This document shows, in pieces, positions 10,163 through 23,935 of a stretch of DNA of 40,217 nucleotides. Source of the DNA: a virus; IMG/VR virus record IMGVR_UViG_3300042691_020169, positions 1 through 40,217 of that record; one strand, 5' to 3'. Made by a program: the position numbers and the translations under genes. Within the stretch, counting starts at the first letter, position 1, and each line of letters opens with the position of its first letter. The notes beneath the pieces are model-generated. The model worked only from the letters and a program-made list of their open reading frames with translations, was not told the DNA's origin and searched no databases.

Positions 10163-11308
10163 ATGGATCTGCTAGAGCTTCTCTCCGCAGGAAGTGGCCC
10201 TTCGCAAGCCGACATCCTCCGCAATCAGCGACGGGGTGAGGAGTCGGCTGCACTGCGCATTGCGAATCAAAATGCTGGCCGCATGGACTTGCTGGCTGCG
10301 GCTTCGCAAATGGCTGCAAATCCTGGAGCTGCCGCCGCAGCCAAAATGTCGGCAGGTAGCCAGCGAGAGCAGTTCTCCCCGGTGCAAATGGGACAGCAGG
10401 GATTCATGCTCCCCAATGAAGGCCAGTTCGTCGAGTCGCCCATGTTCGCCGATGAGAAACGTGAGGCTCGCGCTAGTCGGTTGCAGGCTGCGGTCATTGC
10501 AGCGGATGAGCGCAAAGAACGAGATCAAGAACGTCGAGACTTGCAGCAGCAAATGCACCGCGATCGCATGAGCGCGGCTGAACGCGCTGCAGAAGACCGC
10601 AGAGAACGACACTTGGAGTCTATGGGTTTGCGGCGAGCTTTAGCGGCAGTGGCGGGCGGAAACGCTGCCGACCGTGCGCGAAGCCGTGAAGAAAAAGACA
10701 CAGACAATAGCGTGCGCAGGCTAGGGGAAACACTGGAAAAAGCGGGCATACCAGAACTGGAGCAAGCTCTCGGCAGCGTGCGTGGAGTGCTGACTGAATA
10801 CACCAGTATTCCGGGGTACGGACGTGTCATGTCTATGGCTCCAGACTTCGCACTTTCTGACGAAGCACAGCAAATTCGCAGCAATATGCAGATGGCTGCG
10901 AACATCATTCTGAAGTCTCGATCGGGTGCTGCGGTCACTACGCAAGAATCGCAGAGGTTCTTGCGAGAAGTTGCACTCGGCAAAGGGATGTCCGAGGCTG
11001 CACTGCGTAATGGTTGGAACAACGTGTTCGAGGCTATCGAAGGCAAAAAGCAGAACCTTTTGTCGACCGTTCCTGACAATATTCTCGAAGTGTACAATTC
11101 GCGCTCCCCTGTTCGGTTCGATCGCCGTACTCCTGCGGATGCGCGCCTTCCCACGGCGACGCCCAGTCCTGGTCGTACGCGCACAGTGCCGGAGTCCACG
11201 CGCCCCCGACCCGCCCCCGCAGCAGCAGCAGCAGGCAGCCCTCCGGCGGGCATACCCCCCGCCGTGTGGGCAGTAATGCCCGCAGAAGATAGGGCACTGT
11301 TCAAGTGA
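10163..11308 (+). CDS. Probable internal virion / DNA-ejection protein (381 aa)
   Basis: The protein is Ala/Arg/Gln-rich. A long charged helical stretch (about residues 95-180) contains DERKERDQERRDLQQQ and repeated RERH/RDRM patterns. A folded part (about 190-310) contains ALGSVRGVLTEYTSIPGYGRV, and a Pro/Ala-rich tail follows (PRPAPAAAAAG). Such composition, and its position between tail and fibre genes, matches podovirus ejection proteins that are packed in the head and leave with the DNA. The start directly follows the previous stop, and the end overlaps the next start (GTGA). Specific homology is not claimed. Confidence 0.6.
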   Translation: MDLLELLSAGSGPSQADILRNQRRGEESAALRIANQNAGRMDLLAAASQMAANPGAAAAAKMSAGSQREQFSPVQMGQQGFMLPNEGQFVESPMFADEKREARASRLQAAVIAADERKERDQERRDLQQQMHRDRMSAAERAAEDRRERHLESMGLRRALAAVAGGNAADRARSREEKDTDNSVRRLGETLEKAGIPELEQALGSVRGVLTEYTSIPGYGRVMSMAPDFALSDEAQQIRSNMQMAANIILKSRSGAAVTTQESQRFLREVALGKGMSEAALRNGWNNVFEAIEGKKQNLLSTVPDNILEVYNSRSPVRFDRRTPADARLPTATPSPGRTRTVPESTRPRPAPAAAAAGSPPAGIPPAVWAVMPAEDRALFK

Positions 11309-12981
11309 CCCCAGAACAGCAAAGCGCGATTGCACGGGCCGAGGCGCTGGCAAGGGCTCAGGCGCGTCTGGAGGCCACGCAAGCCACGGGGCAAGGGGGT
11401 AGCACCACCCAACCCGCTGCGGCGGCTCCCGCGCCTCTACAGGCCTCAGAGCGGGCGGGTGTATTGCAGCGGGGGCTGGGTGCTGCGGTGCCGGGGTCAG
11501 GGTCGGTCGTGTCTGGTCTGGGAGACTCGGCCATCAAGGCTGCGCTCGGCATCAAGAGCTTGTTCACCGACTTGTCTCCGGAAAACAAAGGCGTGCTCGA
11601 GCAGATACGGCAAGAGAGCGAACGCGAGTCTGGCATGGGCGCGTTCGGCCGTGGGGCCGGAGAAGTCGCAGGCAACATCGCAATGACTGCCGTCCCCGGT
11701 GCGAAGGCGGGTAGTGTGCTTGCGAAGGCCGCTGGTGCGGGCCGGGCGGCACGCACGCTGGCAACCGTAGGCTCTGCAGCGGGCGTCAGCGGGGCTACCG
11801 GCTTCGCGCTGACCCCTAGCGAGGCGGAAGGTGCAGAAGCACGCTTCGCAGAGAAGGGCAGACAGGCTGCGATCGATGCTGCGCTCGGCGCGGGCATGCA
11901 GGGCGTCGGCACGGTCCTGCGCAAGGCCACGACCAGGATGTTCACCCCCAGCCCTGACGCGGTGAAGCTTATGGAGGCTGGGATAACTCCTACACTATCT
12001 CAGGGAGCCGAAAGACGCATCGGCAAGTCGATTGGTTCGCTGGCTGCGGGGTCGCGGCGAGTTTTGCAGCGACAAAACGAAGAACTCGGTGAGTCTCTGT
12101 TCCGAAAGATCACCGAAGGCAACAGAGACATTCCCGGAGGCACTGGAAACGAACTACTCGAGTCCGCTCAAGACTACGTCAGCCGCGCATACGACGACGT
12201 GTTCCAGGGACAGAAGTTTCCCATCACACAGTCGTTGGTGGGGCGGGCCTCTGCGGCAGCCTCCCAAACCGGCAGGCTCGGCGGTGGGGCGAAGGCGGCG
12301 GGGGAAGCAGCAGCAATCATCGCAGACACCATAGACGCGACCAAGCTGTCTGCCCGTGGCACACGGATGACGCAAAAAGAAATTCAAAAAGAAATATTGA
12401 CGGAGCTCAAGCGCAAAGCGGCACGCACCAACGATCCAGGAGTAGTCGCCGCGATAGATCGTGCCCGCGACGTCTTCAAAAATCACGTGTATGGGCGCAT
12501 CACCCCCGAGCAACTTATGCGGGTCAAGGACATCGATCGCCTGAACTACGACCTCAGTCGCATGAAAACGGCGGCGAAGGACGCTGCCGGTGAGAATGTG
12601 GGCGTGGGAATAGATCGGTTGAAGACTGCGTATGGGCGTGCTGACCCGATGGCAGGTGTGAACACAGTAGACGAGTTGGTTGGCCCCGCCCAGCGAGTAC
12701 TCGGTCCCACGCATGCAGCAGCAGGACGTGGAGATGTCAACACCACCATGCGAATTTTGGCCCCGCTCGGAGTCGGGGGTATCGGTGTGGCGACAAGTAA
12801 TCCTATCATCGCCCCTATTCTCGCCGGACTATACGGAACATCTGCCATCGGTCAGACCGTCAGGGGTGCGCGTTTCCTCATGGGCCAAAACCAAAGTCAA
12901 AAAGACCTCGCTGAAGCCCTGCGCAGAGCAGGCCCTTATCTGTATGGGGCGGGCGCAGCAGCGTCTCCGGGAGAAGAATAA
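11305..12981 (+). CDS. Probable internal virion / DNA-transfer protein (558 aa)
   Basis: The gene starts with GTG overlapping the previous stop. The sequence has Ala/Gly-rich helical segments (GAFGRGAGEVAGNIAM, AGVSGATGFAL), a long amphipathic central region and a hydrophobic stretch near residues 490-520 (LAPLGVGGIGVATSNPIIAP) that could enter a membrane. This fits the podovirus ejection proteins that form a conduit across the envelope. No lytic transglycosylase or lysozyme motif is visible. It sits directly before the tail-fibre gene, overlapping its ATG by one base at 12981. Confidence 0.6.
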   Translation: MTPEQQSAIARAEALARAQARLEATQATGQGGSTTQPAAAAPAPLQASERAGVLQRGLGAAVPGSGSVVSGLGDSAIKAALGIKSLFTDLSPENKGVLEQIRQESERESGMGAFGRGAGEVAGNIAMTAVPGAKAGSVLAKAAGAGRAARTLATVGSAAGVSGATGFALTPSEAEGAEARFAEKGRQAAIDAALGAGMQGVGTVLRKATTRMFTPSPDAVKLMEAGITPTLSQGAERRIGKSIGSLAAGSRRVLQRQNEELGESLFRKITEGNRDIPGGTGNELLESAQDYVSRAYDDVFQGQKFPITQSLVGRASAAASQTGRLGGGAKAAGEAAAIIADTIDATKLSARGTRMTQKEIQKEILTELKRKAARTNDPGVVAAIDRARDVFKNHVYGRITPEQLMRVKDIDRLNYDLSRMKTAAKDAAGENVGVGIDRLKTAYGRADPMAGVNTVDELVGPAQRVLGPTHAAAGRGDVNTTMRILAPLGVGGIGVATSNPIIAPILAGLYGTSAIGQTVRGARFLMGQNQSQKDLAEALRRAGPYLYGAGAAASPGEE

Positions 12982-17404: not shown

Positions 17405-17674
17405 CTATCCTTGATTCACGTAGCTGGGGCCAGCCTCTTCTGCGTCGTCACGCTCCTGTATCTCGATGTACTTGTCGAGAAAGTGCCGCGCCTTCTTCAA
17501 GTCGTCGAGACGCTTCTTAGGAGTGTCGTGTTTGTACTTCCAGCGGAACACGTACTTGGTGATTTGTCCCTGGAAATAGTCGAGATTGAACAAGTCGACC
17601 ACGTCCCAGTGTTGCACAGTGTGGTCAGTCTTGTAGTGGTCGCCCGCTACCTGATGATCATTCGCTTTGGGCAT
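17405..17674 (-). CDS. DUF3310 family protein (T7 gp1.7-related type)
   Basis: The 89-residue protein has the family pattern HYKT...VQHWDVVDLFNLDYFQGQITKYVFRWKYK followed by KKRLDDLKKARHFLDKYIE. DUF3310 includes the T7 gp1.7 nucleotide-kinase-like proteins and many uncharacterised phage relatives. No P-loop is present. It overlaps the end of the thymidylate-synthase homologue by 17 bases, so a link to nucleotide metabolism is plausible. The exact activity cannot be read from sequence. Confidence 0.8.
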   Translation of the reverse strand: MPKANDHQVAGDHYKTDHTVQHWDVVDLFNLDYFQGQITKYVFRWKYKHDTPKKRLDDLKKARHFLDKYIEIQERDDAEEAGPSYVNQG

Positions 17675-18665
17675 TGTCTCTCCTCTTGATCCAGTCGGTG
17701 AGTGCGTAGTACCAGTCGCAATTCGCCATGCTGGTCAGCGCATCGGCCACACCCTTGGTGTCCCCTGCCTTACGGGCGAGGTATGCATTCTTCATCGGCT
17801 CAGCGACCCGTTGCATGAATGGGCTCTTGCACTTCACGCCCTCCAGCAGCCGGAAACAGTCTTCCTTGAATTCCATGGGACGGTCTCCGTGCTCCACCAG
17901 CGGGAAAACGAAGGGGCTACTCCATTGGTCTTTGGCCGCTGCCGTGCGGTACCGGGGGGCGAAAATAGGGGGCATCACCCGGTAATCTTGCCACAGAGTC
18001 AAGTCTGTGTAGATGTGGAAGTTGTTGCTGAACTGAAGGTACACCCCCATCGGTGCTCGAAGAAACGCAGCCACATACTCCTGCAGCACACTGAAATGAA
18101 CTACGTTGGCTCCGTAGCATCCCCAGATCGCGTCATTGCTGCGACAACAGACGGTCATGTTGAGTTTGCCGCCCCTGAGGTCGAAGTAGATCGTGGTGTT
18201 GCAGGGCACGTCGTTCCACTCTAGCGCCCTGTCTTGTACGGGATCCCACATGTTGATGACGGCGCGGCGCGACGAGGCATCGTTGCGCAGTGTGTTCACC
18301 ACGTAGCTGATTTGGTCCACGTCATCGAAATGCGAGCGCCAGCGGTGCCCGTAGGCTCCGTTGATGATTCCATCATTGGCGTACCTGCCAATGTTAGAGT
18401 TGAACTGTTCCAGCCAGTCCACCCTGTTTTCTCCCGCCAACATCCAGATAGCTTCCATCAAGTGGAAAGTGGGGTTGGCGTCCCTGCGGGTGTCGAAGAG
18501 TACGCGCTCCCACGGGCACAGGTATTTGGAGACGACCGGCCCCGGTGCCACCAGCACGGGGCCGTTTCTGGACTGCTCGTGGCACTCAGGGCCGAGAGTG
18601 CGCATGAACCAGATGGCGTCGGTGAAAACATCATTCACATTTCTGCCGCTTACTTGCATCGTCAC
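17658..18665 (-). CDS. Thymidylate-synthase homologue, probable dUMP methylase or hydroxymethylase
   Basis: The 335-residue protein has the key thymidylate-synthase family features. YGHRWR lies at 105-110 and the dinucleotide-site arginines (SRRAV) at 131-135. Catalytic C155 is in DVPCNT, RSND is at 175-178, N187 is in GCYGANVVHFS and HIY at 217-219. Asn at 187 instead of Asp favours dUMP over dCMP as substrate. The loop GCYGAN is one residue longer than the usual GLPFN. I chose GTG 18665 because AAGGAG fits it and it overlaps the upstream stop. ATG 18659 is possible. Its place in a thymine-modification cluster suggests production of 5-hydroxymethyl-dUMP. Plain dTMP synthesis remains possible. 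Confidence 0.85.
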   Translation of the reverse strand: MTMQVSGRNVNDVFTDAIWFMRTLGPECHEQSRNGPVLVAPGPVVSKYLCPWERVLFDTRRDANPTFHLMEAIWMLAGENRVDWLEQFNSNIGRYANDGIINGAYGHRWRSHFDDVDQISYVVNTLRNDASSRRAVINMWDPVQDRALEWNDVPCNTTIYFDLRGGKLNMTVCCRSNDAIWGCYGANVVHFSVLQEYVAAFLRAPMGVYLQFSNNFHIYTDLTLWQDYRVMPPIFAPRYRTAAAKDQWSSPFVFPLVEHGDRPMEFKEDCFRLLEGVKCKSPFMQRVAEPMKNAYLARKAGDTKGVADALTSMANCDWYYALTDWIKRRDNAQSE

Positions 18666-18865
18666 TCTTTCTGCTCCTTTATGAGGAGGCTATGTTCACG
18701 GGCGTAGCCTTCCATTTGTTGTCGGGTGAGAAACTGAACCATGAACCACCCGTCCTGCATGTCACTGTACGGCACCACCGTGCAGTTGATCGCACACCCG
18801 TGGACTTCCTCGCCCACAATCAGGTCACCCTGGATGGTATGTATTCCTGACCCTTCGATCTCCAT
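18662..18865 (-). CDS. Small hypothetical protein inside the modification cluster (67 aa)
   Basis: The protein begins MEIEGSGIHTIQGDLIVGEE. It contains a probable beta-rich half with two cysteines (GCAINC) and ends with a charged helix (QMEGYAREHSLLIKEQKE). It starts 41 bases inside the end of the upstream modification gene, and its stop overlaps the GTG of the thymidylate-synthase homologue. Tight coupling suggests a linked role, but nothing in the sequence identifies it. Confidence 0.6.
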   Translation of the reverse strand: MEIEGSGIHTIQGDLIVGEEVHGCAINCTVVPYSDMQDGWFMVQFLTRQQMEGYAREHSLLIKEQKE

Positions 18866-19634
18866 ACTTGACCCTCATGTATTTGGAAAACTCACACAGG
18901 CAGTTCTGGAAATCTTGCATGTGTATGGGGGGAATGTCTTCGTTGATGAGGGGGGCGGTGGCCTCCCATGCCATGCTGATGGCGGCTTGAAACCCCTTGG
19001 GCGTAATGGGAACGCCGTAGAGCGCTGAAAGCCCCCGCAGGCTACCGGGGCCGGGGCTGCACCACGTGTGCCAGTCTGGAGCGCTCTGGAGCGGGTGGCC
19101 GGGGGTGTTTTTGCAGTCAGCCAGCACCTGCCCAGCCAAAAAGCTCCCAAACCCGTCAACGCACGTGATTTGCTTGTAGCACTCAGCGAGGCTGCTGTAG
19201 TCAGGCTCCCCGGCCTCCATGAATGCCTGCACGACCTCCATCACGTAATCGATCTTGTCCATCTTCTTGCCGCAGGTGGAGATCGTATATGCGCTGGTGA
19301 ACACCTTGTCGCCCCGCTCACGACGGGCCTTCAAGATACCCCCGATGGTGGATAGGTCGGGGTATGTCTTCGGCACCTGCGCACTCACCACTTCGTTGAG
19401 TGTGGGGATGTAATTGAGCATGCGCCCCAGGACGATCCACCACATGGGCATCTTCGCGCAGCGCCACTCGCGCGCCATCCACACGGTAACAGCATCATCC
19501 TCGCGGTGGACGTTGCACCAGCGCACCCCCGCCATGTTCGGGTCAGCGGTCCACGGGGGCACCTGCCCCGCAGTCTTTTTCTTCATGATGCTGTACCGCT
19601 CATTGATCCAGTACGCCAGTTCTTCTTTTTTCAC
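18825..19634 (-). CDS. Thymine-hypermodification protein, aGPT-Pplase / HMUDK helical-domain family
   Basis: The 269-residue protein matches the DNA-glycosylase-like helical family linked to alpha-glutamyl/putrescinyl-thymine pyrophosphorylase and the helical part of 5-hmdU DNA kinase. The N-terminus has INERYSIMKKKTAG, then PPWTADP (26-32) and RWCNVHREDD (38-47). The middle has a helix-hairpin-helix-like VDGFGSFLAGQVLADC, followed by CSPGPGSLRGLSALYG. In known clusters these proteins act on 5-hydroxymethyl-uracil in DNA. No Walker A loop is present, so the kinase half is absent. The GTG start at 19634 follows AAAGG and overlaps the glycosyltransferase gene by 35 bases. Confidence 0.75.
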   Translation of the reverse strand: MKKEELAYWINERYSIMKKKTAGQVPPWTADPNMAGVRWCNVHREDDAVTVWMAREWRCAKMPMWWIVLGRMLNYIPTLNEVVSAQVPKTYPDLSTIGGILKARRERGDKVFTSAYTISTCGKKMDKIDYVMEVVQAFMEAGEPDYSSLAECYKQITCVDGFGSFLAGQVLADCKNTPGHPLQSAPDWHTWCSPGPGSLRGLSALYGVPITPKGFQAAISMAWEATAPLINEDIPPIHMQDFQNCLCEFSKYMRVKYGDRRVRNTYHPG

Positions 19635-20412
19635 GACTAGCCTTTCCGGCCGCTGCGGCCTTTTTCCATGCTACTCGCACATCAAGCCGTGGTTGCCCGC
19701 CCCACGCCGTTTTCGTTTGCTTGTGTACCACAGTAACATATTCAGGGTACAGCGCGGCAAGTTGACGGGCAGCGTCCCCATGCATCTCGAGCGTGCGGTA
19801 GCTGGAGCACCCGCCTTTCGCCCCACTGCCGGAACGTTGGTTGGTGACCCACTTGTTCGCCACGACACAGGTGCCCCCAACCAGCATGATTTGTAGGGCA
19901 ACGTGGAAGTCTTCCATGAGTTCCATGGGGGCAAACGTGATTTTCCACGCGTTGAGATAGTCGCGCCGGTAGCCCAAGGCACGCATCATTCGTGTGTTGT
20001 ACAGGTACGGCTCCACATTGCGATTGCCGCCCTCCCTCGCCCCTATGCTGACGAATGGGCTGGTGGTCAGCAGCTCTTCAACTTCGTTGAGCATGCGCTT
20101 GATGTCTTCAGTCTCAGGGCTGCGGAATCGAGTTGGATCGTCTGTGCGGCGCACCGCAAAGTCGAGGTCATCGTCAAGCATGAGGATTGAGTCATCCGTT
20201 GCGTGCTTGAGGATGTAATCCCGTGTTGCGCTGATGGTCTGTATTTCCGGGGGCAGCACTTGCACACTCACGGACTCTAACACACTGTGCGCTAGATACT
20301 TCGATGCTTCTCGTTCTTGCACGACTAACGTCACCTTACGGCCCGTCGGGAGCAGGTTACTCAGCGTAGCCTGCTCCCCCGAGCGACCGTAGGTGGGGAT
20401 GAAGATTTGCAT
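19600..20412 (-). CDS. TAGT-like DNA-base glycosyltransferase
   Basis: The 270-residue protein has a GT-A fold pattern. It starts MQIFIPTYGRSGEQATLSNL, has strand-like KVTLVVQERE, then ISATRDYIL, and the metal-binding LMLDDDLDF (77-85). A later ELMEDFHVALQIML segment offers the acidic catalytic pair. This combination resembles the TET-associated glycosyltransferases (TAGT), which add sugars to oxidised bases in phage DNA. No TET/JBP dioxygenase is visible in the window. With a thymidylate-synthase homologue nearby, 5-hydroxymethyl-uracil is the likely acceptor. A surface-polysaccharide glycosyltransferase is the main alternative. Confidence 0.6.
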   Translation of the reverse strand: MQIFIPTYGRSGEQATLSNLLPTGRKVTLVVQEREASKYLAHSVLESVSVQVLPPEIQTISATRDYILKHATDDSILMLDDDLDFAVRRTDDPTRFRSPETEDIKRMLNEVEELLTTSPFVSIGAREGGNRNVEPYLYNTRMMRALGYRRDYLNAWKITFAPMELMEDFHVALQIMLVGGTCVVANKWVTNQRSGSGAKGGCSSYRTLEMHGDAARQLAALYPEYVTVVHKQTKTAWGGQPRLDVRVAWKKAAAAGKASREKRRTGVLDQ

Positions 20413-20415
20413 TGC

Positions 20416-21048
20416 CTACGCCCTTTCGTAGAAAGAGAGAGTTGCCCACGCCTTCGTGTGCAGGGTGGGGAACTTTAAGCACGCGAACCCTGACTCTAGA
20501 AATTTCTGGTGCATGGCAGAAGCCGCGCCGCGCTCATGTTTTCTGGTCAGGTTGTACTCGATAGCCACTGCCTTGACGGACTCTGGCAATTCCCCCGGCA
20601 CCACGAAACTATACTCTGCCCCCTCGCAGTCTACCTTCAACTTGGTTGGTGTATAGTCGTGCAGCAATTTGGCGAATTCGACAGCGGGCACGGTCACTAC
20701 ATCTCGCCCCCGCGTGGGAACGGTACTGTGCAGTCCCTTGTTTTTCCCCCGGTTTTCGTAGAGAAAAACATTCTGCGTCATGTTGTCACCGACAACCGCA
20801 GCATTGATGTTCAGGCTGCGGGGGGAGTTGATTTCCAGAAGAGCAAAGTTGTCTGGGGACGGCTCCACGGACACTACGCTATGGCAGATCCCGGCGGCGT
20901 ATTTCGCGAAACTGCCGATGTTGCCGCCTACATCAAGAACGATGTCGTGCGGGTACAGGGTCAGCATTCGGTAAGTTCTCAGCTCGTCAACCACGTAGCT
21001 GTCAAGCGTTCCTTCTCGTACGATGTATCCCTTGTACGTCGTAATCAT
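20416..21048 (-). CDS. FkbM-family SAM methyltransferase
   Basis: The 210-residue protein has class I methyltransferase motifs. IVLDVGGNIGSFAKYAA (about 36-52) binds S-adenosylmethionine, and SVVSVEPSPDNFALLEIN provides the acidic post-motif II residue. LKVDCEGAEYSFV (about 137-149) is the FkbM signature 'D.EG.E'. FkbM enzymes commonly O-methylate sugars or small metabolites. It lies 3 bases upstream of the TAGT-like gene. I infer that it could methylate the sugar placed on DNA. The start ATG follows TAAGGA with a 5-base spacing. Confidence 0.8.
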   Translation of the reverse strand: MITTYKGYIVREGTLDSYVVDELRTYRMLTLYPHDIVLDVGGNIGSFAKYAAGICHSVVSVEPSPDNFALLEINSPRSLNINAAVVGDNMTQNVFLYENRGKNKGLHSTVPTRGRDVVTVPAVEFAKLLHDYTPTKLKVDCEGAEYSFVVPGELPESVKAVAIEYNLTRKHERGAASAMHQKFLESGFACLKFPTLHTKAWATLSFYERA

Positions 21049-21111: not shown

Positions 21112-21570
21112 TCAGGCCTCTTCTTCGGTCGCCGCCAGATCTGCGTCCACCTCGGCCTCGGCCTCTTTCACCGCCTTGGGCTTTTTCGCCTTCGGCTCCT
21201 TGGGGGCCTTCGGCTCGCGCACCTTGGGGGTGATGATCTGGCCGGGGGTGTACCCCTCGATGCTGATGAAGCCGTGGGCCGCGTCGTACACGAGCGCCGG
21301 GGTGGCGTCCTTGCCCGTAGCGTCCACGTACTGCGCCACGGTCATGCCGTTACTGTATTTCTCCCAGAGATCGAAGGCTTTGGAGCCGACGCGCTTCGGG
21401 TTTTTGTCGGCCAGCACGGTGATCACGGCGGTTTCCGGCACGCCACGGGGGCCACGGGTGCGCGCCACCGGCTCGGTGGGTGCCGGGTGCGAACCTGCGT
21501 CCAGTACAGTCTCTTCCGTGGTACCTTCGGCGACGGTTTCGGTTGCCGGGGCTGCTTTCTTCTTTGCCAT
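21112..21570 (-). CDS. Internal-start product: Lys/Ala/Pro-rich protein (152 aa)
   Basis: ATG 21570 lies in frame within the longer gene and is preceded by CAAGGAGAAGCAAAA, one of the best ribosome sites in the region. The product begins MAKKKAAPATETV. It has a central predicted winged-helix-like segment (VITVLADKNPKRVGSKAFD, SNGMTVAQYVDA) and ends with alternating Lys/Pro and Glu/Ala runs (EPKAPKEPKAKKPKAV). It may bind DNA. Independent expression is inferred from the ribosome site. A merged ancestral gene pair is the likely origin. Confidence 0.6.
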   Translation of the reverse strand: MAKKKAAPATETVAEGTTEETVLDAGSHPAPTEPVARTRGPRGVPETAVITVLADKNPKRVGSKAFDLWEKYSNGMTVAQYVDATGKDATPALVYDAAHGFISIEGYTPGQIITPKVREPKAPKEPKAKKPKAVKEAEAEVDADLAATEEEA

Positions 21571-22053
21571 TTTTGCTTCTCCTTGAATGAGAAAGTTTGG
21601 ACGTGCGCGGTTCGTCCAGTTCTGGTTGGCTACCTTCGCGCCGAGGTAGTAATTGCGGTATGCTAGCACAGTCTGGCCCGGAACCTTGTATTCATCGGGC
21701 ATGCACTGCGGAGGCATTGTCTGTCGCCGCACGCGCTCGTACATCTCGGGGGGCGCATAGCGCACCTTATCGATTACGTTCGCGCATGCGTGCCTTTTAC
21801 GAAATCGCGTGGTGTACTCCAGGCACAGGTATTCTCCGTGCCGCACCAACCAATCGTAGTGCTTGACGTGGTCGCCTGCCCACAGCACGCACGGATGGTT
21901 CTGATGCGTCGGCTTGTAGGGGGCATTGCGTCCGTAGCGGTGTTGAACTGCACAAAGTATTTGCGCAGTTTCCAGACACATTTTGACTACATGCTTGTCA
22001 TGTTGATACATGGCAGCAAGTGCAGGGTCGTGATCTAGGTAGAAGATGTTCAC
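21112..22053 (-). CDS. Conserved 'DKHVVKM' phage protein fused in frame to a Lys/Ala-rich protein (313 aa)
   Basis: Residues 1-160 match a conserved phage family by pattern: MNIFYLDHDPALAA, QHDKHVVKMCLETAQILCAVQ, NHPCVLWAGD and YRNYYLGAKVANQNWTNRARP. I know no assigned function for it. Residues 162-313 form a second unit with a Lys/Ala/Pro-rich start, a folded centre (NPKRVGSKAFDLWEKYSNGMTVAQYVDA) and a very charged tail. The two units are in one open frame. A strong ribosome site (CAAGGAGAAGC) precedes the internal ATG at 21570, so the second unit is probably also made separately. The GTG start at 22053 has a weak ribosome site. Confidence 0.65.
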   Translation of the reverse strand: MNIFYLDHDPALAAMYQHDKHVVKMCLETAQILCAVQHRYGRNAPYKPTHQNHPCVLWAGDHVKHYDWLVRHGEYLCLEYTTRFRKRHACANVIDKVRYAPPEMYERVRRQTMPPQCMPDEYKVPGQTVLAYRNYYLGAKVANQNWTNRARPNFLIQGEAKMAKKKAAPATETVAEGTTEETVLDAGSHPAPTEPVARTRGPRGVPETAVITVLADKNPKRVGSKAFDLWEKYSNGMTVAQYVDATGKDATPALVYDAAHGFISIEGYTPGQIITPKVREPKAPKEPKAKKPKAVKEAEAEVDADLAATEEEA

Positions 22054-22275: not shown

Positions 22276-23685
22276 CTATTGACGGCTGCGCTCCAATAGT
22301 GCCATAAAGTCCTCTTGCTTCGCATCTTTTCGTGCCAGGACTTGCAGCACACGTTCGTCTACGGTGTCGCGGGCCAGTATGCGGTGGACGATAACCGCCT
22401 TCGCCTTGCTGCCGCTGCGCCGCACTCGATCGATAACCTGTAGGTAGTCTTGCAGTCGCCACGTCAACCCGTACATGGCGATGTGACAACAGTTGTCTTG
22501 CAGGCCGTCAATGCCCAGCGCGATAGATTGTGGTTGGCCGACTACTGCGGGGAGCTCTCCTCGCGAGAAGCGCTGAATCATCATGTCATCGTTCTTGGCA
22601 TTGCCCGTGCTGATGCTGGGGATTTTCAACCCCTGCATGATCGCGGCAGCGTCGGGCACGAACTCATATGTGATGAGGCAGGGCTCCCCCTGTAGCTGTT
22701 CCAGAAGGTCGGCCAGTGCATCCAGCTTTGCCGCGTGGACGAAATGTGCGTCCCCGTGCTCGTCGAAGATGTTTCCGTTCGCCACCTGTCTGCACTTGCT
22801 GCTGGCGACAGCAGCATTCGCCGCCACCACATTCCCCGCAGCAACCTCGGCCATCATGCTGCTATCCATGCGGTCGTAGATCACGCGTGCAGCCGGGGGC
22901 AAGTCAACGAATATGTCGTCAAATAGTAGGGCGGGCAAGTCCAGGTTGCCTTTGGCGCTGACACGATAGACGAGTGGCGCTATTTTTTCGAAGATACGGT
23001 TTTCTGCGTCCGCCTGTGGCAGCCATTCGTAGCCGACGAAGCCGTGCGGGTAGAAGAACGCCGTGCGGTAGTGGGTGATAAACCGGCCCAGTGCTGCGCC
23101 CTCGTCAAGTATGTAGACCTGTCCAAACAGGTCTAGAAGGCCGTTGGGTGTGGGGGTGCCTGTAAGTATGTACCGGCGCTTGAAGTGCGGTACGAACGCT
23201 TTGAGCAGCTTGAAGCGGTTGCTCTGCGCGTCCTTAAACTTGGTGGATTCGTCAACCACCAGCACGTCAAACATAGACTTGATCCACTGCACCCTGCCGG
23301 GATCCAGCACCATCTTGTTCCCCACTTTCTTGGCTCCGAACAGCCACGCTAGCCCCTCGGGGTTGATCACGCAGATGTCGCTATCTTCGTGGAGTCTTTT
23401 CTCTTTGTCTTTGCCATGCAGCAAGCTCACTCGCAAATGCTTGAACTGCTCGAACCGATCTTTCTGGTGGGGCCAGACGCGGTACGCGGGGCGCAGGGGA
23501 CAGATGACCAGCGTGCGCTTGATCATTTTCTTTGAAAGTAAAATCAAAACTACGCTGTAAATCACTGACGTCTTGCCCAGTCCCGGGGCCATCAGCAGGC
23601 CAGCACACGCCTGACTGATGCACAGTTTGATCGCCTCGGCCTGATAGGCACGTGGAACGTATAAACTCGATTGCGTCTCTTGCAT
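22276..23685 (-). CDS. SNF2/DEAD-type superfamily 2 helicase
   Basis: The protein has 469 residues from ATG 23685, chosen because TAGGAG is correctly spaced. A TTG six bases earlier is possible. Motif I is APGLGKT (33-39). Motif II is VVDESTK (about 143-149) and motif III LTGTPTPNG (about 171-179). The C-terminal domain contains LITYEF and the motif VI-like DRVRRSGSKAKAV. Such helicases, paired with VRR-NUC nucleases, are common in phage replication or recombination modules. The VRR-NUC gene lies directly upstream and overlaps it by about 305 bases. It probably remodels recombination or replication intermediates. Confidence 0.85.
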   Translation of the reverse strand: MQETQSSLYVPRAYQAEAIKLCISQACAGLLMAPGLGKTSVIYSVVLILLSKKMIKRTLVICPLRPAYRVWPHQKDRFEQFKHLRVSLLHGKDKEKRLHEDSDICVINPEGLAWLFGAKKVGNKMVLDPGRVQWIKSMFDVLVVDESTKFKDAQSNRFKLLKAFVPHFKRRYILTGTPTPNGLLDLFGQVYILDEGAALGRFITHYRTAFFYPHGFVGYEWLPQADAENRIFEKIAPLVYRVSAKGNLDLPALLFDDIFVDLPPAARVIYDRMDSSMMAEVAAGNVVAANAAVASSKCRQVANGNIFDEHGDAHFVHAAKLDALADLLEQLQGEPCLITYEFVPDAAAIMQGLKIPSISTGNAKNDDMMIQRFSRGELPAVVGQPQSIALGIDGLQDNCCHIAMYGLTWRLQDYLQVIDRVRRSGSKAKAVIVHRILARDTVDERVLQVLARKDAKQEDFMALLERSRQ

Positions 23686-23935
23686 TGTCAAAGACTCCTA
23701 CGGGATATCCCCTGCGACGTAGCTCTTCAATGCGCGCGGGCTGGTTACGGTCTAGCTTGTCGCCCCTGCCCGGTTTCTTGAACTCTATGAAGCAGATGAA
23801 TGGGTAATAGAACAGCCAGAGACGGTCCGGCCAGCCGGTATTGCCTTGCAAGTTTAGCTTGAAAGCAAGGAGGCCGCAACCCTTAGACCAACTGATTACA
23901 GTCTCCTCTACATCCGATTCAAGCGTGTTTCTCAC
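23381..23935 (-). CDS. VRR-NUC domain nuclease with an overlapping C-terminal extension
   Basis: Residues 1 to about 93 form the nuclease: ESDVEETVISWSKGCG, then NTGWPDRLWLF (PD at 36-37), FIEFKKPG (E51 and K53 of the PD-ExK site) and VGVFDNARDAIEFI. Family members usually end near here, but this frame stays open to residue 184. The last ~90 codons lie in another frame of the SNF2 helicase gene. The extension is Arg/Pro-rich and looks like out-of-frame sequence, so the natural stop was probably lost. VRR-NUC proteins cut branched or structured DNA. Confidence 0.75.
   Translation of the reverse strand: MRNTLESDVEETVISWSKGCGLLAFKLNLQGNTGWPDRLWLFYYPFICFIEFKKPGRGDKLDRNQPARIEELRRRGYPVGVFDNARDAIEFIRSTCLSGRGDQTVHQSGVCWPADGPGTGQDVSDLQRSFDFTFKENDQAHAGHLSPAPRVPRLAPPERSVRAVQAFASELAAWQRQREKTPRR

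Follow-up and report, generated by a model that had tools for sequence, protein, structure and literature searches.

The locus at positions 17658 to 21048 of the IMG/VR virus record IMGVR_UViG_3300042691_020169 raises the question of which modified base is made by a phage that encodes a thymidylate synthase homologue, a helical protein, a TAGT-type glycosyltransferase and an FkbM-type methyltransferase side by side. The whole stretch of DNA analysed here, called the window in the following and labelled G000 in record-level searches, comprises 40,217 bases. We consider it probable that the cassette makes glycosylated 5-hydroxymethyluracil in phage DNA, and that the product is here probably O-methyl-glycosylated. 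In the direction of transcription the genes follow each other on the minus strand in the order FkbM, TAGT, HEL, ORF67 and TS, with neighbours overlapping or lying a few bases apart:

20416..21048, minus strand: FkbM, an FkbM-type methyltransferase of 210 residues (PF05050, E=4.3e-11); predicted accessory O-methylation of the transferred sugar
19600..20412, minus strand: TAGT, a TAGT-family GT-A glycosyltransferase of 270 residues (PF20691, E=9.6e-20); predicted glycosylation of 5-hydroxymethyldeoxyuridine (5-hmdU) in DNA
18825..19634, minus strand: HEL, a stand-alone HMUDK helical protein (aGPT-PPlase1) of 269 residues (PF18723 HMUDK_hel, E=4.1e-34); predicted partner of TAGT in 5-hmdU-DNA recognition and base flipping
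18662..18865, minus strand: ORF67, a small conserved protein encoded between the HEL and TS genes
17658..18665, minus strand: TS, a thymidylate synthase family protein of 335 residues (PF00303, E=2.6e-21; phrog_5131, E=1e-94), a hydroxymethylase of the type acting on deoxyuridine monophosphate (dUMP); predicted maker of 5-hydroxymethyl-dUMP (5-hmdUMP)

The original prediction, which had described this as a four-gene locus, was based on motifs in four proteins, all of which were found in the translations at the places given for them. The four genes are confirmed, but ORF67 had been overlooked as a fifth. All four family assignments are borne out by Pfam matches above cut-off (PF00303, PF18723, PF20691, PF05050) and the PHROG matches agree, the glycosyltransferase PHROG being named after the T-even beta-glucosyl-HMC-alpha-glucosyltransferase. 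Hereby, TAGT scores 71.8 bits (curated cut-off 27.5) over positions 1-204 of the 205 of its profile and HEL 118.7 bits (cut-off 25) over positions 7-276 of 281. The 270- and 269-residue proteins, whose placement outside these families had been named as grounds for giving up the proposal, thus lie squarely inside them.

In the pathway that we propose, TS would turn dUMP into 5-hmdUMP, which would be converted to the triphosphate 5-hmdUTP and take the place of thymidine, partly or wholly, during polymerisation, as known for the family and as its residue signature indicates. HEL would bind the replicated DNA, recognise 5-hmdU and probably flip it out; fusion, synteny and partner swapping suggest that it serves the P-loop 5-hmdU kinase of M6/SP10-type phages likewise. 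TAGT, occupying the slot of this kinase, would transfer a hexose from a uridine diphosphate (UDP)- or thymidine diphosphate (TDP)-sugar onto the 5-hydroxymethyl group, whereupon FkbM could O-methylate the attached sugar as an accessory step. As a speculation, ORF67 would probably join the HEL complex as a small accessory subunit. The benefit for the phage may lie in shielding its DNA from host nucleases. A sugar on 5-hydroxymethyluracil in DNA, as originally proposed, is thus upheld as the most likely product predicted for this locus.

Neither a P-loop kinase nor a TET enzyme had been visible in the window, and profile searches of the whole record, which may be incomplete, confirm this: TET_JBP (PF12851), the 5-hmdU kinase (PF18748) and ADDT (PF18724) were all absent from the 40,217 bases, while positive controls gave the expected matches. 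Hereby, the kinase was recovered in M6, Pam3, RHph_TM26 and Goe26, and ADDT in M6, Pam3 and RHph_TM26. TET was detected in record G009 (locus L015), where it lies beside TAGT; HEL and TS were not found in the fetched L015 locus. TET_JBP was likewise absent from the cassette relatives searched, including 30 further records, and neither kinase nor ADDT was found in the TAGT relatives searched; the kinase was detected in 0/21 further TAGT records and in 6/6 kinase-type records. TAGT enzymes, which had been introduced as described beside TET oxygenases, are not tied to TET, as T2 and T6 also use one (PMC13216743).

Scanning viral contigs yielded 226 relatives of TAGT and over 560 of HEL, the best 80 of each being kept, and all open reading frames (ORFs) of the fetched loci, many of which are near-duplicate contigs, were scored with iterated profiles. 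TAGT, HEL and TS are all present in 123 of the 133 TAGT-bearing loci, and TAGT and HEL are direct neighbours (<250 bp) in 110 of 125 loci, with either gene first and across divergent phages. The usual neighbourhood consists of PolA, an SNF2 helicase, PyrEx, TAGT, HEL and TS, and an HD hydrolase often comes next. One TAGT relative came from a bacterial genome collection: L174, on contig JANYKK010000146 of a Methylobacter metagenome-assembled genome, carries a TAGT-HEL-TS cassette which possibly belongs to a prophage or a co-binned phage and gives a hint at a host. No close DNA relatives of the window were found among phage records. TAGT-HEL-TS is a widespread recurrent cassette: about 120 viral contigs carry it, and phage LuckyBarnes has a version with two TAGTs. 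The combination in the window, originally presented as not known from described phages, is hence a recurrent variant of thymidine hypermodification and not unique to the window phage.

TAGT and the kinase were not seen together beside HEL. They never co-occur in 151 HEL loci (125 with TAGT, 9 with kinase), and 80 loci chosen by HEL similarity alone comprise 57 with TAGT, 6 with kinase, 17 with neither and none with both (hypergeometric P=3e-4, uncorrected for kinship). In six viral contigs the kinase adjoins HEL, and five of these (L118, L122, L129, L141, L152) share the TAGT-type neighbourhood, which can be written as PolA-SNF2-X-HEL-TS-HD with X being TAGT or kinase. The same slot beside HEL-TS holds a GT4-like glycosyltransferase in L143, L164, L165 and L173. 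The slot is also taken by a family of about 300-380 residues without Pfam match (L111:4594-5502, L151:8832-9971, L155:104-1057, L167:4281-5429 and, downstream of HEL, L156:11609-12541), possibly another decorating enzyme. Radical-SAM/SPASM proteins, likewise at the slot, that are inserted into TAGT- or glycosyltransferase-HEL-TS cassettes or adjoin them (L045:9042-10004, L047:10761-11768, L059:11615-12598, L135:8943-10001, L151:7542-8540, L173:9063-9986) suggest further chemistry on the base or the sugar. In a quick HEL tree with several long branches, the kinase label requires 5 changes, of which well-supported branches force at least 4, and some sister loci carry unlike partners (L141 with kinase and L037 with TAGT; L165 with GT4 and L035 with TAGT). 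Judged from these sequences, the decorating enzymes were swapped several times beside a constant HEL-TS pair. More tentatively, and with a probability that we place just short of even, HEL-TS could be a general module to make and find 5-hmdU that takes interchangeable decorators (kinase plus ADDT, TAGT, GT4-like glycosyltransferase, the unclassified family, radical SAM, FkbM), so that one base-flipping adaptor would feed different chemistries and many unrecognised glycosylated thymine bases would exist in environmental phages. As a separate observation, L156 encodes a weakly sulfotransferase-like protein between HEL and TS (10825-11607), and a sulfated sugar or base is possible there.

What HEL contributes had been left open; partner swapping together with a kinase fusion suggests an answer. 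All 91 aligned HEL relatives match PF18723. The invariant residues of HEL are R13, N41, R44, D47, R71, Y116, F165, D173, D187, G195, G197, G201, C247, E248 and K251. The predicted model is all-helical, with a predicted local distance difference test score (pLDDT) of 95.1. In BFVD it matches an SP10 protein named 5-hmdU DNA kinase as well as ADDT proteins and, weakly, Endonuclease III of HGTV-1 (probability 0.38). In Bacillus phage Goe26 a single 636-residue protein combines a kinase domain (35-193) with HEL (312-597), and the M6 kinase acts on 5-hmdU in DNA, preferring TG and TC contexts (PMC6449724). The fusion and the SP10 match thus link HEL physically to an enzyme that works on 5-hmdU in DNA. 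Since HEL is also found where a glycosyltransferase is present and the kinase is not, the best reading these data suggest is that of a recognition module which finds 5-hmdU for whichever decorating enzyme is present. Among the best matches of the HEL model in the PDB are 8-oxoguanine DNA glycosylases of the OGG-type HhH class (best E=0.21, probability 0.91, template modelling (TM) score 0.36), enzymes that flip bases, and we hypothesise from the model that HEL might do the same. No sequence link from HEL to solved structures was found, and no OGG_N proteins, sought for a better profile, were detected in 299 genomes of one phylum. An apparent 855-residue HEL fusion in L144 was discarded: its frame runs off the contig end, its N-terminus is not protein-like and a second family match is absent.

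Alternatively, HEL itself could be a pyrophosphorylase- or phosphotransferase-like enzyme that activates 5-hmdU in DNA, with TAGT placing the sugar on the activated intermediate to give a phospho-linked sugar as in SP-15 rather than a simple O-glycoside. The many invariant charged residues of HEL, the first naming of its family as a pyrophosphorylase and the phosphodiester-linked glucuronolactone plus glucose on the modified uracil of SP-15 (PMC5977210) speak for such an activity. We nevertheless regard it as unlikely, as the phosphotransfer domain of Goe26 is a separate P-loop domain, this domain is missing from the TAGT cassettes and the HEL fold is similar to that of no kinase.

Several points weigh against our reading of HEL as a recognition partner of TAGT and against the proposed pathway as a whole. 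The likeness of HEL to DNA glycosylases stays below significance in the PDB comparison, and no sequence match of HEL to DNA glycosylases was found. The hhalign profile comparison of HEL with HhH-GPD is sub-threshold (probability 1.4%); in this alignment G161-F-G163 lies opposite the hairpin GVG and the invariant D187 opposite the catalytic Asp region, in the expected register. The invariant Asp, Glu, Lys and Arg residues of HEL would fit an enzyme equally well. In five TAGT-TS loci, including ctUhy936 (L002), HEL was not detected, so HEL may not be essential. Divergent kinases receive low scores from the profiles behind the kinase calls, positive and negative alike, and because of the many near-duplicate loci the survey figures count contigs, not independent events. 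Finally, we know of no base analysis for any phage with the cassette.

Which pyrimidine is modified can be read from TS, which was aligned with E. coli ThyA, the deoxycytidine monophosphate (dCMP) hydroxymethylases gp42 of T4 and T6, SPO1 gp29 (annotated as dUMP hydroxymethylase) and M6 gp58. The window TS retains the catalytic Cys, and its Asn187 aligns with ThyA Asn177, whereas the T4 enzyme has Asp at this place, offset by one alignment column (FRNDYAW vs YGANVVHF). As in SPO1 gp29 and M6 gp58, Asn substitutes for the TS-specific His147 and Cys168, so that the window TS carries the residues that mark the gp29 type. The same dUMP-type signature is present in 151/151 TS homologues from related loci. 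Judged by these residues, the window TS very probably acts on dUMP, which would make the modified base a derivative of thymine, in line with the uracil-type assignment made originally; a cytosine-type hydroxymethylase is rejected on the same residues for the window TS and the 151 homologues alike.

A cytosine system, in which TS would make 5-hydroxymethyl-dCMP and TAGT would glucosylate 5-hydroxymethylcytosine (hmC) as in T2 and T6, is accordingly quite improbable. It can draw on the ggt protein of T6, which is a TAGT (PF20691, E=1e-8) and acts on glucosyl-hmC (PMC13216743), and on the dCMP hydroxymethylase predicted by the authors of the LuckyBarnes genome (PMC6588365). Against it stand Asn instead of Asp at the pyrimidine-reading position and the membership of HEL in 5-hmdU pathways. 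The cultured Brevibacterium phage LuckyBarnes itself (NC_047851; L003 9601-13616) encodes HEL, two tandem TAGTs and a TS whose residue at the 177 position is Asn, and a search for kinase, TET and FkbM in it found none. Its published description, a dCMP hydroxymethylase with two glycosyltransferases, is by this residue probably wrong as regards the substrate. From the window it differs in the tandem TAGTs, in gene order and in having no detected FkbM.

For TAGT, residues D80-D82 (the DDD metal/nucleotide-binding motif), D168, R206, R242 and W249 are invariant among 68 relatives. The predicted model (pLDDT 95.9) adopts a GT-A fold, and the closest structures in Foldseek are the UDP-/TDP-sugar enzymes TarP, TarS and RmlT (UDP-N-acetylglucosamine, TDP-rhamnose; E about 1e-7 to 1e-6); no sequence link from TAGT to solved structures was found. 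We predict that TAGT glycosylates 5-hmdU in DNA. In T2 and T6, TAGT attaches the second glucose to hmC that is already glucosylated (PMC13216743), and the T4 beta-glucosyltransferase can glucosylate 5-hydroxymethyluracil in DNA (PMC4111573). Glycosylation of the free nucleotide ahead of polymerisation, HEL then having another purpose, would have a parallel in the dihydroxypentyl-uracil of SP-15, which is made before DNA synthesis (PMC5977210). We hold it to be very improbable, since T-even glucosylation and the M6 kinase work on DNA (PMC13216743, PMC6449724) and the pairing of TAGT with HEL parallels that of kinase with HEL.

The FkbM protein scores 43.7 bits against PF05050 (cut-off 22.7) and contains the motifs LDVGGNIG and VDCEGAE. 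That it acts together with the glycosyltransferase on host or virion surface glycans, lying by DNA-modification genes by coincidence, is barely credible: surface polysaccharide loci often contain FkbM and GT2-like enzymes, and TarP-like folds are the best structural matches of TAGT, but TAGT adjoins HEL in both orders in divergent phages and TET adjoins TAGT in L015. Returning to glycosylated 5-hydroxymethyluracil, FkbM homologues are found beside TAGT-HEL-TS in L041 and beside GT4-like glycosyltransferase-HEL-TS in L164, both coming from loci that had been retrieved through TAGT and HEL; a pattern scan of viral contigs found no FkbM relatives. Hereby, FkbM is present in 3 of the 31 phage records sampled (the window, L041, L164), each time as the sole PF05050 match of the record, and absent from the other 28. 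Being rare yet always beside a glycosyltransferase in an HEL-TS cassette, it supports O-methylation of the sugar, and FkbM probably methylates the transferred sugar. The O-methylation suggested earlier thus gains from this recurrence but shrinks to an accessory step confined to three loci. The ORF67 family has 30 members after an iterated search; when all ORFs in 175 sequences were compared with it, 36 matched, at about 32 distinct loci. Its members always lie between HEL and TS, in TAGT-type and kinase-type loci, and ORF67 has no Pfam match.

Compared to known systems, the cassette is close to the M6/SP10-type thymidine hypermodification of M6, SP10 and Pam3 (5-hmdU DNA kinase, HEL, ADDT), with which it shares the dUMP-type hydroxymethylase, HEL, a similar neighbourhood (PolA, HD hydrolase) and, in some kinase-type loci, the ORF67 family; the window, however, lacks the P-loop kinase and ADDT, and TAGT fills the kinase slot. 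Phages with TET-TAGT cytosine hypermodification share the TAGT family PF20691, whereas the window has no TET and a uracil-type hydroxymethylase would install the hydroxymethyl group on the nucleotide. The gentiobiosyl-hmC system of T2 and T6 (agt plus TAGT/ggt; PMC13216743, PMC13390438) likewise combines a hydroxymethylase with a TAGT to put sugar on a hydroxymethyl-pyrimidine, but its hydroxymethylase is cytosine-type, its TAGT adds the second sugar after agt and no HEL is seen beside it. Sugar on a thymine-derived base, as predicted for the window cassette, is known from SP-15, with glucose and phosphoglucuronolactone on dihydroxypentyl-uracil (PMC5977210), and from YerA41, with a modification of about 1 kDa that is apparently an oligosaccharide and whose genes are unassigned (PMC9023294). 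Glucosyl-hydroxymethyl-uracil, the base J of kinetoplastids, would be the same chemistry as the window product. The synthesis of base J starts with JBP1/2 oxidising thymidine in DNA and relies on a different glucosyltransferase.

If our reading is true, the cassette would explain genetically how a large group of viruses, most of them uncultured, can obtain sugar-decorated thymine in their DNA independently of TET oxidation. That the helical part of the 5-hmdU kinase pairs with other enzymes would then also show what this part does. The cultured phage LuckyBarnes offers a direct way to put this to the test, and such enzymes could serve to label or protect DNA at hydroxymethyluracil.

Directly downstream of TS, the window encodes a DUF3310 protein (17405-17674) with a DUF3310 score below cut-off. 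By analogy it might aid the phosphorylation of 5-hmdUMP, because the T7 nucleotide kinase gp1.7 shares this domain, there confined to the C-terminus. At 22276-23935, frames for an SNF2 helicase and a VRR-NUC protein lie in different reading frames and overlap by about 310 bases, which puts start choice or a frameshift in question. Between these and FkbM lies a further gene:

21112..22053, minus strand: upstream neighbour with a pyrimidine-dimer-glycosylase-like N-terminus (PF03013, E=2.7e-07) and a lysine-rich C-terminal domain

Homologues of this protein are encoded upstream of TAGT in many loci; the gene thus belongs to the neighbourhood, and a role in the pathway is a possibility. In L008 the pyrimidine-dimer-glycosylase-like and the lysine-rich parts of the homologue are two separate genes.

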